Positions 54,610 through 59,714 of a stretch of DNA of 59,714 nucleotides are shown piece after piece (positions within the stretch are counted from its first letter, which is position 1; each line of letters starts with the position of its first letter). The DNA comes from Corynebacterium phoceense (GTDB taxonomy: Bacteria > Actinomycetota > Actinomycetes > Mycobacteriales > Mycobacteriaceae). The stretch lies in the NCBI RefSeq assembly GCF_900092335.1, contig NZ_LT596208.1:1654877-1714590 (forward strand), in the 5' to 3' direction. Made by a program: the position numbers and the translations under genes. The notes beneath the pieces were generated by a model. That model did not search any database. It was not told the origin of the DNA and saw nothing but the letters and a program-made list of their open reading frames with translations.

Positions 54610-56658
54610 CTACCGGTAATCCTCGTCGTTGAGGCGCGCGAGCATCGCATTGTAGTCCTCCAAATCCTGGTCGCCGTCGAGGTCCGCCTTCTGGTCGTGG
54701 CGTCGCGCCGCGGAGCGGTCCTCGCGCAGCCACTCGAGGAAGAGCGTGCCAAAGACGATAACGAGCGGGAACTGGCCGAAGCCCCAGGCGATACCGCCGC
54801 CCACCTTCTGGTCGTAGGCGAAGTCCGGGTTCCACGGCAGGTCGAGGGAAAGGTAGAAGTTCTCGCCCAGGATCTGGCCCAGCTGCATGAGATAGACGCC
54901 CGCGTAGAGGTGGATGGGCATGGAGATAAACAGCAAAAGCAGGCGCAGACCGGTGGGCCGGCGGTGCGGGATCGGGTCGGGGCCCACGAGCTCCCAGAAG
55001 TAGAAGTAGCCGGAGACGAGGAAGCACGCGTTCATGATGACGTGCCCGGCGTGCTCGGAGACCGCGTACTCGTACAGGTCAAAGGACAGGTAGAGAATGT
55101 AGAAGAAGAACAGGAACTGCACGAGGTTGACCGCCGGGTGCGTGATAAATCCGACGATCCGCGAGCGCGTCGCCGCCAGCGCCCACTCGTGCGGCCCAAA
55201 TCCAGGTTCCCAGGCCTCCATCATGAGGGTGAGCGGCGCGCCCAGCGCGAGCAGGAGTGGAACGACCATGGACAGCACCATGTGGCCCAGCATGTGCATG
55301 GAGTAGAGCGCGGGAATGTACATGCCCAGCTCCGAGCTCATAAACAGCGTCATGCCCAGGGAGCCGGCCATCCACCACGCTGTACGAGTCCACGTCCACG
55401 TCAGGCCGCGCCGACGTACACGCCAGACCCCGTACGCATAGAAACCAGCGAGCAACAGGCCCAGGGTTCCCCACAAGATATCGAAGCGGAAGTGAGTGAA
55501 GAGACCGGCGACAGAGGGGGCTTCGGAAAGCTCGTAGCCCAACAGAATCTGCATGGAGTTGAGGTTGGGATCGCGCGGCGGCGGGGGCGGCGTGCGGCCC
55601 ATGGTGCCAGCCACGCCGACCGTGAGCGCCATGACCAACAGTTCGACAAAGGCGACGCGGCGGAAGCGCTCCGGACGCGACTTCAGCTGCGGCATGGTGA
55701 GCTGGCGGTGCGCGAAGCCGAAGAGCGCGAGCACGAGCGTGAGCACTGACTTCGCCACGATAATGAGGCCATAGCGGGTGGTAAACCAGTCCGACCATTC
55801 GATGCGGATGGCGGCATTGATAAGGCCCGAGCACACCATGACGATGACGGAGAAGAGCGCCAGATTGGAGTACCGGCGCACGGCCATCGTGAGATCCGGT
55901 CCCAGGCGACGGCCATGCGCAAGCAGAGCGAGCAGCCCACCTACCCACAGCACCATGAAGATGAGGTGCCAGAGGAAGGAGTTCGTCCCGTAGTCATGGT
56001 CGCCGCCCGAGGCCGAGTGACCCTCCATGCCCAGCGGCACGACCATGAGGACCGAAAGAACCAGCAGGACCGGCTGCGAGCCCCAGCGCGAAGCGATAAG
56101 CCCGCCGATGCCCACCACAGCCGCGAGGCCCGCAGTAAGCAGCCACACCTGCGCGGTCGAGATATTGGGGAACGCGTAGGTAAACAGCTGGGGGTCGAGA
56201 ACCTCAAGGAAGGACGAGCCGGTGGTATCGGAAAGCACGAGTGGGACTTCCAGCACTGCGAGGACCGCGGTGACCAGAGCTGCAAGCGCGCCAACCCGTT
56301 TCGCGACGTGTCCATCCACGGTGAGAGGCGCTGTGTTGAGTGTCTCAGCGTCGTGTTCTCGCGGGGAGATGAAGAAGGAGGACGCCAGGAAGGAGCCCAC
56401 GGAGGTGGCCATGGCAATCCATGCGGCGGCACGAACGAAGGGTAAACCCACCGTCGTCACACGACCGGGATCCGGGATGCCGAGCGCCTTAAGCGAGTCC
56501 GCGAGGAAGAAGGACGCGATGCCGCCGGCTGCGATACCTGCGACGATGGCAATACAGACGTAGATCCATGCGGAGCCACGGGCGCGGCGCCGCGCGGCGG
56601 GGACAGACGCGACTGCGAAACCGTCCCCCTCCTGGGAGGACAACTGCTCTTCAGACAT
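54610..56658 (-). CDS. CopD - CtaG fusion, copper and cytochrome c oxidase assembly
   Basis: A 682-residue membrane protein with about 16 hydrophobic segments. The first half (about residues 1-360) is CopD-like (FLWHLIFMVLWVGGLLALLAH), and the second half (about 370-650) is caa3_CtaG-like, with HMLGHMVLSMVVPLLLALG and MNACFLVSGYFYFW. Such fusions are common in actinobacteria and probably handle copper for oxidase assembly. ATG at 56658 gives MSEEQLSSQEG. A LysR regulator is divergent. Confidence 0.9.
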   Translation of the reverse strand: MSEEQLSSQEGDGFAVASVPAARRRARGSAWIYVCIAIVAGIAAGGIASFFLADSLKALGIPDPGRVTTVGLPFVRAAAWIAMATSVGSFLASSFFISPREHDAETLNTAPLTVDGHVAKRVGALAALVTAVLAVLEVPLVLSDTTGSSFLEVLDPQLFTYAFPNISTAQVWLLTAGLAAVVGIGGLIASRWGSQPVLLVLSVLMVVPLGMEGHSASGGDHDYGTNSFLWHLIFMVLWVGGLLALLAHGRRLGPDLTMAVRRYSNLALFSVIVMVCSGLINAAIRIEWSDWFTTRYGLIIVAKSVLTLVLALFGFAHRQLTMPQLKSRPERFRRVAFVELLVMALTVGVAGTMGRTPPPPPRDPNLNSMQILLGYELSEAPSVAGLFTHFRFDILWGTLGLLLAGFYAYGVWRVRRRGLTWTWTRTAWWMAGSLGMTLFMSSELGMYIPALYSMHMLGHMVLSMVVPLLLALGAPLTLMMEAWEPGFGPHEWALAATRSRIVGFITHPAVNLVQFLFFFYILYLSFDLYEYAVSEHAGHVIMNACFLVSGYFYFWELVGPDPIPHRRPTGLRLLLLFISMPIHLYAGVYLMQLGQILGENFYLSLDLPWNPDFAYDQKVGGGIAWGFGQFPLVIVFGTLFLEWLREDRSAARRHDQKADLDGDQDLEDYNAMLARLNDEDYR

Positions 56659-56733
56659 GTGTCGCATTCTACGACGTGAGCGTTATACCACGAAAAGTGA
56701 CTATTACTTCCAATCATGGCATTATATTTGTCT

Positions 56734-57657
56734 ATGGACTCGCGACAATTATCGTACTTCCGGTCCGTGGTCGACCACAGGTCGTTTACCCACGCCGCTG
56801 CGGCGCTCGACATGACGCAGCCGTCGCTGTCTCTGTCGATCCGCAAGCTGGAAAAAGAGCTCGACGTGCAGCTGCTCACCCGCGGCCGCGCCGGCGTCTC
56901 CACGACCGAGGCGGGCGACTACCTCTACACGATCGCCATCAAGATGGAAACCCTCATGACGGAGGCCGACCAGCGCATCCGCGAGATCGCCGGCGGCCTC
57001 GCTGGCTCCATCTCCATCAACGCCGCCCCGGAGTTCAACTGGGCCTTTATGCCCGAGATCCTCTCCCGCATGTTTGAGGTCGCCCCTGACGTCAAGCTCT
57101 TCCTCGAAGACCCCGAGCCCATCATCACGCTGGAGCGCGTCCTCGACGGCTCCATCGACCTAGGCCTCATGCCGTCCATAGACCCGCGCGCCTTCGCGCA
57201 GCAGCACCAGGACCAGCTCGTCGTCCACGTCGTCACCGAGTTCCCCATGCTGCTCGCCGTACCGGAGCGCCTTAAGGATCTCCCGGACGAGGTCTCGCTC
57301 GCCGATATCGCGCATGAGACGTGGATCCTCCCTAAGCACCATGACGAGTTCCCCGGCCTGCCAGACCTCCTGCGCACCGCCTGGTTCCAGAACCCCGAGT
57401 CCAAGCCCACCCACATCCAGGAAGTCTCCACCCTGCAGACCGCCATGCCGCTCGTCGCGGGCGGCATCGGCGTGGCCCTGCTTCCGGACTCCGCCCAGCG
57501 CCACGCTGGCGACCACGTCTTCTTCAAAAAGATCAAGGGCGATTTCCCGAGCATGCAGCCCATCCTCATCTACCGCAAGGACAAAGACCTCTCCCCCGCC
57601 GCCAACCAGCTCGTGGACATCATCCTCGAGGTCGGCGCCGAGGGTAGGTACCACTAG
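56734..57657 (+). CDS. LysR family transcriptional regulator
   Basis: A 307-residue LysR regulator. The winged helix is at the N-terminus (QLSYFRSVVDHRSFTHAAAALDMTQPSLSLSI). The effector domain contains SIDLGLMPS and VAGGIGVALLPDSAQ. The ATG at 56734 is chosen for the classical M-x-x-R-Q-L start. TATATT lies only five bases before it, and no ribosome site is seen, so the transcript may be leaderless. ATG 56716 would add six residues. It diverges from the CopD-CtaG gene. Confidence 0.9.
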   Translation: MDSRQLSYFRSVVDHRSFTHAAAALDMTQPSLSLSIRKLEKELDVQLLTRGRAGVSTTEAGDYLYTIAIKMETLMTEADQRIREIAGGLAGSISINAAPEFNWAFMPEILSRMFEVAPDVKLFLEDPEPIITLERVLDGSIDLGLMPSIDPRAFAQQHQDQLVVHVVTEFPMLLAVPERLKDLPDEVSLADIAHETWILPKHHDEFPGLPDLLRTAWFQNPESKPTHIQEVSTLQTAMPLVAGGIGVALLPDSAQRHAGDHVFFKKIKGDFPSMQPILIYRKDKDLSPAANQLVDIILEVGAEGRYH

Positions 57658-57711: not shown

Positions 57712-57788
57712 GCCCCCATAGCTCAGCGGATTAGAGCAGAGGGTTTCTACCCCTTGTGTCGCGGGTTCGATTCCTGCTGGGGGCACCA
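57712..57788 (+). tRNA. tRNA-Arg (anticodon TCT)
   Basis: A 77-base cloverleaf with acceptor GCCCCCA/TGGGGGC, anticodon loop TTTCTAC (anticodon TCT, codon AGA) and T arm GGGTTCGATTCCT. The CCA is encoded, unlike in the other two tRNA genes of the window. Confidence 0.96.
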
Positions 57789-57810: not shown

Positions 57811-57836
57811 AAAGGCTCGGTACCTCCCGAGCCTTT
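57811..57836 (+). terminator. Hairpin after tRNA-Arg
   Basis: AAAGGCTCGG pairs with CCGAGCCTTT across six bases, directly after the tRNA. It is followed by GCGCTTTGCG, a weak tail. Confidence 0.7.
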
Positions 57837-57843
57837 GCGCTTT

Positions 57844-58210
57844 GCGATGCCGCCGAGCTCTACTGCCGCAACGGCCGGCGTCGACCCAGGCCTGGTGCGC
57901 CACTACTTCGGTACCAAGGAGACGAAGGTGAAGCTCCTCATGGCCCTGGGCACCGAACGCCTCACCCAGGAAGACGCCCTCTTCGTCGAACTACAAAAAT
58001 CGTGGGCAGCCCGGCCGAACGTCTCGTGCGCCGTTACTTCTTCATGTGGGAACACCCACCTCGCGGCCCATTATTCTGGCATTCCCGCGCGCCCTCACGT
58101 CCTTTACGACGTTACTCGCTCCCACCCCAGCCCCACTGCCGTACGGGACTCAAGTCCTCGAAAGCGGTCTCCTAATCCGCCACCGCCGCACCGTCTACGA
58201 GCGCGCCTGA
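57844..58210 (+). pseudogene. Decayed TetR family regulator
   Basis: Pieces of one TetR protein are read in three frames. AGVDPGLVRHYFGTKE, the end of a TetR DNA-binding domain, lies in frame at 57877-57924. ERLVRRYFFMWEHPPRGP, typical of the ligand domain, starts in another frame at 58017. ILAFPRALTSF starts in a third at 58073 and runs to TGA at 58210. At least two frameshifts and a missing N-terminus make it non-functional. It sits just after tRNA-Arg, a common place for insertion and decay. Confidence 0.7.
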
Positions 58211-59343
58211 CCGCGAATCTCCTTACCTAGCCCCTCCAGTTCTCTCACAGCGGCGGACTGCGCCACCGCCGAATCCGTCGCGCGCGGCGGCGCCTGAATA
58301 ACGCGCTCCGACTCAAGCCCTCGCTCTAACTCGATCGCGCGCGTAATCTCCGCGTCGATCTTCACGCCGAGGATAAACAGCGTGTTCATGATCCACAACG
58401 CAAACAGCGCGATGATGACGGTTCCCAGCGCGCCGTACGCGCTGCGCGCACCCACCACCGTGAAATAGACCCGCACCAGTCCCCACGCCACGACAGCGCC
58501 CAGCAACGCGATGGTTGAGCCCACCGTGAGCCACTGGAATTTCTGCGTCCGCACATTCGGCGCGAAGCGATACAGCAACGCCAACAGCGTCACGCTCATC
58601 ACCGCCACGACCGGCCAGCGCAGCCATCGCCACACCGGCAGGAAGGAATCGACGAGGAAAGAACGCACCGAAGAAACACCCGGGACCCCGCCAAAAGGCC
58701 GCAACAGTCCCACCACGATGTCACGCTGCAGCATGAGCGCCACAAAGATCACCACGAGGCCCAGTACCACAGCGATGGTGAGCAGCCACATCACTGTCCA
58801 CGTGCGCACGAGCCCGCGGCCTTCCACTCGCCCATACATCGCATTGGCACTGCGCGCGAACGCCCGCACATACGCCGAGGACGAAAACAGTGCGAGGACC
58901 ACCGATAACACCAGCATGAGCGTCGACTGTTGCGTCGAGCCCACCACCGCATCCACGACCCGCTGTGCGGCATTCTCCCATTCCGGCGGCAGGTACGTCC
59001 CGATGAAATCGGCCGTGAGCTTCTGCACCTGTTCCTCATTGCGCGCGAGCACCAGCGTCGCAATGGAGTACACGCCCAACACCATGGGCAGCGCCGTGAG
59101 CACCGTAAAGAACGTGAGCGTCGCCGCGCGGTCCATCATCGCGTTCATGAAGAGCTCATGGCGCACCCGGCGCGCAACTAACCCCCACGCACGGCGCGAC
59201 AAGTGCCACGCACTCTCCCCCGCCGAGCCATACGCCCGGGGCACCTCCGTGCGCACGAGCTCCCCACTATTGGGCGCAGCGACGGCAGGGCTTGGCCGTG
59301 CCCCCTTCTTCTCACCGTCGCCCGGCGTGGCGTTTTGTGTCAT
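58195..59343 (-). CDS. YihY/BrkB family membrane protein
   Basis: A 382-residue protein with a polar N-terminus of about 55 residues, then six hydrophobic helices. It matches the BrkB family, with AATLTFFTVLTALPMVLG, FSSSAYVRAFARSANAMYG and YGALGTVIIALFALWIMNTLFILG. The function is unknown, and a transport role is suspected. Its 3' end overlaps the decayed TetR gene by 16 bases. Confidence 0.9.
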   Translation of the reverse strand: MTQNATPGDGEKKGARPSPAVAAPNSGELVRTEVPRAYGSAGESAWHLSRRAWGLVARRVRHELFMNAMMDRAATLTFFTVLTALPMVLGVYSIATLVLARNEEQVQKLTADFIGTYLPPEWENAAQRVVDAVVGSTQQSTLMLVLSVVLALFSSSAYVRAFARSANAMYGRVEGRGLVRTWTVMWLLTIAVVLGLVVIFVALMLQRDIVVGLLRPFGGVPGVSSVRSFLVDSFLPVWRWLRWPVVAVMSVTLLALLYRFAPNVRTQKFQWLTVGSTIALLGAVVAWGLVRVYFTVVGARSAYGALGTVIIALFALWIMNTLFILGVKIDAEITRAIELERGLESERVIQAPPRATDSAVAQSAAVRELEGLGKEIRGQARS

Positions 59344-59445: not shown

Positions 59446-59714
59446 ATGTCTACCTTCTCCGACGTCCTCGACCAGTTGCGCAAGAACCAGCCGCAAGGCA
59501 AGTACGGCATCGCCTTTGAGAAGCTCATGGTCAATTACTTCCGTAATGACCCGACGTTGAGCGAAGAGTACGAAGACGTCGGACGCTTCATCGACTGGAA
59601 ATACTACGACGGACAATCCGATACCGGCATTGACCTTGTAGCCCGCCGCCGCGAGGACGGCCGTTGGGTCGCCATCCAGTGCAAGTTCTATGAGCCGACC
59701 GCTTACCTCCAGAA
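59446..59714 (+). CDS. N-terminal part of a type ISP-like restriction enzyme or helicase (cut by window edge)
   Basis: The first 89 codons of a gene running out of the window. The sequence reads MSTFSDVLDQLRKNQPQGKY, then FEKLMVNYFRNDP and, at about residues 60-80, GIDLVARRREDGRWVAIQCKFYEP. The D...Q-x-K pattern (GIDLVA, then AIQCKFY) is that of an Mrr-type PD-(D/E)XK nuclease, and this spacing is found at the N-terminus of type ISP enzymes such as LlaGI. CATAAT lies seven bases before the ATG and no ribosome site is seen, so it may be leaderless. The helicase and methylase parts cannot be seen. Confidence 0.6.
   Translation, partial: MSTFSDVLDQLRKNQPQGKYGIAFEKLMVNYFRNDPTLSEEYEDVGRFIDWKYYDGQSDTGIDLVARRREDGRWVAIQCKFYEPTAYLQ

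Follow-up and report, generated by a model that had tools for sequence, protein, structure and literature searches.

The closest solved relatives of the gene described here are LlaGI (PDB 5ffj) and LlaBIII (PDB 4xqk), Type ISP restriction-modification (RM) enzymes of Lactococcus, whose genes lie on plasmids. In two studies, Type ISP enzymes translocate along DNA, collide head-to-head and cleave (PMC4666363, PMC4872093), and their genes are described as highly conserved in the first half and variable in the specificity domain (PMC4872093). Type ISP genes of Helicobacter pylori (HP0667–HP0669, JHP0612–0613) also occur in frame-broken versions, with frameshifts described as 'not due to sequence repeats' in strain 26695 and as 'authentic' in J99-R3 (PMC3936762). 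Among the papers listed on Type ISP enzymes that touch on Corynebacterium, the relevant one is on CglI. We analysed a window of 59,714 nucleotides of the Corynebacterium phoceense genome (G000:C2:1654877–1714590). At the very end of this window a gene opens that has the same domain set and order as LlaGI and LlaBIII. It aligns with LlaBIII in the D...QxK residues of the nuclease and with both enzymes in the motor, methylase and specificity parts, and differs from the lactococcal genes in being chromosomal, actinobacterial and part of an exchanged island. The best explanation, which we hold to be almost certain, is a single-chain Type ISP RM enzyme beside a tRNA-Arg gene, in a small defence island that is partly shared between species.

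The last 269 bases of the window (59446..59714, forward strand) carry the 5' end of this gene, an open frame of 89 codons with an ATG start (59446–59712) that stays open up to the window end. The encoded peptide matches Pfam Mrr_cat_2 (E = 6.4e-18; 65.3 bits, cut-off 22) and the nuclease domain of LlaBIII (E = 3.2e-9), its DTGIDLVA...AIQCKF aligning with DTGVDLVA...AIQAKF of LlaBIII so that the D...QxK residues are paired; both matches agree with the original prediction of a nuclease-like N-terminus with this pattern. Directly after the window's last base, at a position inside the nuclease domain, 165 N begin, and the 59 bases preceding them reappear right behind them with four mismatches (55/59 identical). 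Given this overlap of the two flanks, the N stretch looks like an assembly gap at which the scaffolder left overlapping contig ends unmerged, and the DNA lost at the join is probably none. The post-gap copy of the overlap reads LxK and the window-side copy QxK, the former of which we take as a low-quality contig end. Mapped to an uninterrupted homologue of 1645 aa with the same domains in one chain, from C. kefirresidentii (L003), the gene covers residues 1–89 before the gap and 71–1642 after it, with no stretch absent. A truly broken gene, in which the N stretch conceals inserted or duplicated DNA and what remains is a restriction pseudogene such as several relatives have, is unlikely: the frames before and after the gap do differ in the assembly as written (f0 versus f2; the upstream frame closes at 242 codons), Type ISP genes were broken repeatedly within the genus and the adjoining GmrSD gene carries an in-frame stop, but the shared overlap is what unmerged contig ends without loss would leave, the homologue is covered with nothing left out, and 1603 codons are open beyond the gap. 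We thus read the gene as spanning L035:3322–8567 (post-gap part L035:3756–8567) of the extracted locus, in which the window position equals the L035 position + 56124; its reading as one chain rests on the gap being an assembly join.

The 1603-codon frame after the gap encodes the remainder of the Mrr_cat_2 nuclease, ResIII (E = 2.5e-29), DEAD, Helicase_C (7.9e-9), ISP_coupler (3.8e-51), N6_Mtase (8.8e-6) and Type_ISP_C (7.5e-90). Reading beyond the edge, as had been proposed, hence yields helicase, methylase and target-recognition domains alike, and in place of a short gene devoid of helicase and methylase parts there is a frame carrying both. The domain order, Mrr nuclease–ResIII/Helicase_C–ISP_coupler–N6_Mtase–Type_ISP_C, is the Type ISP layout, and the best solved relatives of the frame (both E = 0) align with it over residues 30–1598 (LlaBIII) and, in three pieces, 101–1598 (LlaGI), which bears out the class originally assigned to the gene. 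Motor motifs (DEAH, TAT and QSVGRVMR, with GTGKT visible in the LlaGI/LlaBIII alignment) and the adenine methylase motifs I and IV (DPFTGTGTF, NPPY) are present. A Type IIG/IIL restriction-methylase or a Type I HsdR instead of a Type ISP enzyme is highly improbable, even though the best PADLOC family (PDLC03597; 2111 bits, residues 4–1597 of 1603) is labelled Type IIG and the helicase part resembles an EcoAI-type HsdR, under the cut-off. An NCBIfam profile search of the frame gave helicase/HsdR-type matches alone, all far under their cut-offs, and no match to a Type ISP model. Type IIG/IIL, however, is a class without a motor domain, which the frame has in ResIII, DEAD and Helicase_C, and Type I systems have separate R, M and S subunits, whereas motor, methylase and specificity domain here form one chain; moreover, Type_ISP_C and ISP_coupler lie far above their cut-offs, and LlaGI and LlaBIII cover nearly the whole frame. 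As a Type ISP enzyme, and by analogy with LlaGI and LlaBIII, it would bind a short asymmetric site through its methylase and specificity domain and methylate an adenine; on foreign DNA that lacks the modification, its motor would translocate until two enzymes converge head-to-head and collide, upon which their nuclease domains would break the DNA. A search of the own genome with the C. kefirresidentii relative as query returned a single gene, that of the window.

Downstream, the Type ISP gene is followed by a small ORF (L035:8797–9048) with no match in four libraries, a toxin-type PIN gene (L035:9045–10034; TIGR00305, 9.4e-17), an ISL3 transposase on the reverse strand (L035:10190–11512) and a GmrSD restriction gene split by one in-frame stop (L035:11697–14138). 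Further downstream of GmrSD stand a LacI-type regulator and sugar ABC genes, labels that come from reading the ORFs and not from a profile. The PIN gene and the broken GmrSD beside the Type ISP gene constitute a small defence island past the window edge, so the suggestion that the edge gene opens a restriction or defence locus lying beyond the window holds. The ISL3-family element can be read as L035:10177–11638, with 29-base ends and an 8-base duplicated flank (CATATATT) on both sides; it is missing from the corresponding place in L110 and L114, and L114, from another species, holds an uninterrupted GmrSD copy of 813 aa. On the window side, a BrkB/YihY-type membrane protein gene (58195..59343, reverse strand; L035:2071–3219) is divergent from the Type ISP gene and uninterrupted (382 aa; Pfam PF03631, E = 5e-37), and the tRNA-Arg (tct) (57712..57788, forward strand) is the left neighbour of the variable site. 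Of the setting described earlier, consisting of tRNA-Arg, a decayed TetR gene and BrkB, the tRNA and BrkB stand, while for the TetR-like remnant between them (57835..58230, forward strand) the evidence is weak, a TetR_N match at E = 0.089 that stays under the cut-off. Left of the tRNA and outside the island are a LysR-type regulator (56716..57657, forward strand) and a CopD/CtaG fusion gene of the chromosomal backbone (54610..56667, reverse strand). In 50 other Type ISP loci with 4 kb on each side, McrBC was found in 3, GmrSD matches in 4, PIN in 3 and Fic in 2, these counts covering only McrBC, GmrSD, PIN, Fic and BrkB query genes. A fixed partnership of BrkB and Type ISP genes was considered and rejected, as BrkB occurs within 4 kb in 1/50 other loci (at least 4 kb on both sides) and the C. 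striatum BrkB, 94.7% identical, is located on another scaffold near tmRNA. In two of the related loci (L110:14219–15790, L114:13061–14632) an ORF of 523 aa stands ahead of the Type ISP gene, with a relative of this ORF beside L112; the L114 copy has no Pfam match.

The site next to the tRNA was compared in 23 loci, the own locus and 22 picked among the best CtaG matches, which are not a random sample. While tRNA-Arg (tct) adjoins CtaG in 23/23, a Type ISP gene starts at most 1.7 kb past the tRNA in 3/23 (own, G194, G127), and those of G194 and G127 belong to a different lineage (66–67% to the C. kefirresidentii gene) with a Fic gene ahead. Gene content after the tRNA-Arg differs across the other genomes compared, and the region is variable as initially proposed. 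The Fic genes between tRNA-Arg and Type ISP gene are at L117:6214–6873 (PF02661) and L145:4750–5391 (by similarity). A tRNA-His lies 1.6–13.5 kb beyond the tRNA-Arg in 17/23 loci; in five (L117, L145, L150, L155, L156) it is outside the piece examined, the contigs of L150 and L156 ending at or near the tRNA-Arg, so that the downstream content of these two is not covered. The own genome has about 107 kb from tRNA-Arg to tRNA-His, compared with the 1.6–13.5 kb of the 17 others. Insertion by a tRNA-targeting integrase was set aside as a supported reading, because a copy of the tRNA-Arg 3' end (22 bases, at most 4 mismatches) is absent from the 38 kb downstream (L035, L036), although the far end of the island may be more distant than that.

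Parts of the island recur in other species. In C. striatum (L110/L021) and L114 (G052), the DNA that begins at the 3' end of the Type ISP gene and extends across PIN and GmrSD is 92–97% identical to the own locus, with one extra piece of 278 bases at 90.6%, and is without the ISL3 element. In L109 (G194) the stretch from BrkB to the nuclease is 96.1% identical over 1501 bases, and McrB and McrC stand downstream in place of PIN and GmrSD. Although island parts are 92–97% identical, the CtaG genes of the same genomes (G067, G052 and G194) are only 69–70% identical to the own CtaG, from which we infer that parts of the defence island move between Corynebacterium species. The locus illustrates gene mobility, in that several species have a near-identical motor and methylase in common, around which the specificity core, a portion of the nuclease and the adjacent genes (McrBC, or PIN and GmrSD) vary. 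The window gene itself is, by its sequence, an ordinary Type ISP member in a small exchanged defence island.

Conservation along the protein was assessed in 61 relatives, those among 88 gene segments with an uninterrupted protein of more than 1400 aa, and is numbered in the post-gap frame. The six closest relatives share 92–96% identity in the motor, 96–98% in the coupler and 92–96% in the methylase; their nuclease part is 100% and 92% identical in two and 74–77% in the other four. Residues 1331–1600 are 82–91% identical, and the 166 residues 1165–1330, which by position are the first part of the specificity domain, only 23–57%. The median of all 61 relatives is 35% for residues 1165–1330 versus 67–75% elsewhere, and DNA alignment at ≥84% identity fails to bridge this stretch. 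The core of the specificity domain is swapped among close relatives, and the target of the window enzyme probably differs from those of its nearest relatives because of this swap. With a core that varies even between close relatives, the sequence does not reveal the target, and the gene adds another Type ISP enzyme of unread specificity.

Of 201 Corynebacterium genomes, 122 match the post-gap protein at E ≤ 1e-3, a count that takes in weak matches to other helicases and methylases, and 71, own included, do so at E ≤ 1e-100. In a draw of 199 other genomes of the order, 13 match Pfam Type_ISP_C; queries and thresholds were unlike, which makes this a rough contrast. Both collections hold one genome per species.

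Runs of 8–14 G or C bases occur in 14 of 88 distinct Type ISP gene segments, none of which is from the own genome. Some of the 88 are pieces of one gene and one is the own gene; left out were L031, L033 and L034 (outside the genus), pieces of <40% identity, and L032 and L111 (no match). The runs are located at about residues 223, 320, 557, 700, 983 and 1546 of the C. kefirresidentii protein. Several relatives have broken frames, and a G or C run is located at many of the breaks. Four of the 14 run-bearing segments are open to full length (L014, L141, L145, L183; 1644–1672 aa), and in eight (L007, L016, L017, L030, L131, L132, L133, L200) the frame stops within about 75 codons past the run; of the remaining two, L203 is a fragment and L011 stays in frame across its run with a stop at codon 47. 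Among the eight, L007 has an assembly gap within its run, and L017 and L030 were counted as broken on account of frames that stop at 574 and 711 aa, two frames each. L132 (C9, stop at 1050 aa) and L183 (C10, open for 1651 aa) align over 4952 bases at 92.9% identity, and no indel in the gene changes the frame other than the single base by which their runs differ. L014 (G8, 1644 aa) and L016 (G9, 225 aa) likewise differ by one base at the run; in the specificity region their alignment has seven further gaps that change the frame. No run of ≥8 was present in 74/88 segments, own included, and none in about 2–4 kb of each of 15 Type_ISP_C loci outside the genus, these being part-gene stretches. Repeat units of 2–9 bases did not reach the script thresholds in any of the 88 segments. 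Near residue 924, L018/L135 lose their frame at a place free of long runs, apparently through an ordinary frameshift.

The runs are enriched in the Type ISP genes. Type ISP sequence totalling 405 kb, in which L007 is counted twice, has 13 runs of ≥9, versus 3 in 779 kb of flanks from 58 loci (Fisher P = 1.6e-4); the corresponding counts are 10 versus 0 at ≥10, 15 versus 6 at ≥8, and 16 versus 11 at ≥7. The genomic background amounts to 1224 runs of ≥9 in 201 genomes, or 0.235 per 100 kb. A run of ≥9 lies inside the gene in 12 of 71 gene-bearing genomes, where 0.79 are expected from each genome's own count and one 5-kb gene; the 12 are a lower bound, as the count covers no gene sequence from G007 and G135 and only pieces from some others. 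The Poisson probability of 12 is 6e-11 at one gene per genome and 1.2e-7 at two genes each, values that ignore kinship: in five of the twelve the run is at one common site with similar flanks, so that independent origins would number about eight. Sequencing error in homopolymers could shift the length of a single run, and would hardly create runs of 9–14.

In several Corynebacterium relatives the runs probably switch the Type ISP enzyme on and off by phase variation, to which the L132/L183 pair points, in that a single C decides between 1651 and 1050 residues. Across the genus, we consider it likely that poly-G/poly-C tracts were gained repeatedly at about six gene positions and make phase-variable Type ISP switches, in which restriction and methylation would switch together because both reside in one chain. 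Counting against this are the absence of a run of ≥8 from most segments (74/88) and the ability of sequencing error to alter run length. Breaks at G/C runs in several relatives set the corynebacterial genes apart from the H. pylori Type ISP genes, whose frameshifts are without repeats or authentic. The proposed switching resembles that of the H. pylori Type IIG genes JHP1272/HP1353–1354, in which homopolymer runs turn a restriction-methylase gene on and off (PMC3936762), although these belong to another RM type and a different phylum, and the window's own gene is without a run. Among the titles and abstract openings listed in literature searches, none was on phase-variable Type ISP enzymes or on phase-variable restriction in Corynebacterium. 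If true, an actinobacterial genus would have phase-variable Type ISP enzymes that possibly control methylation-dependent gene sets. A single-chain, motor-driven restriction enzyme switched by homopolymers in Corynebacterium would be relevant to phage resistance, to the difficulty of transforming some strains and to methylation-driven cell-to-cell differences in skin and airway commensals; this lead in the relatives matters more than the window gene itself. The window's gene is a member of this Type ISP family that is currently without a run, and phase variation of this gene was rejected, its longest run being just 5 bases. Elsewhere in the own genome there are two C runs of ≥9, a C12 (G000:C1:264443–264454) and a C10 (G000:C2:25708–25717).
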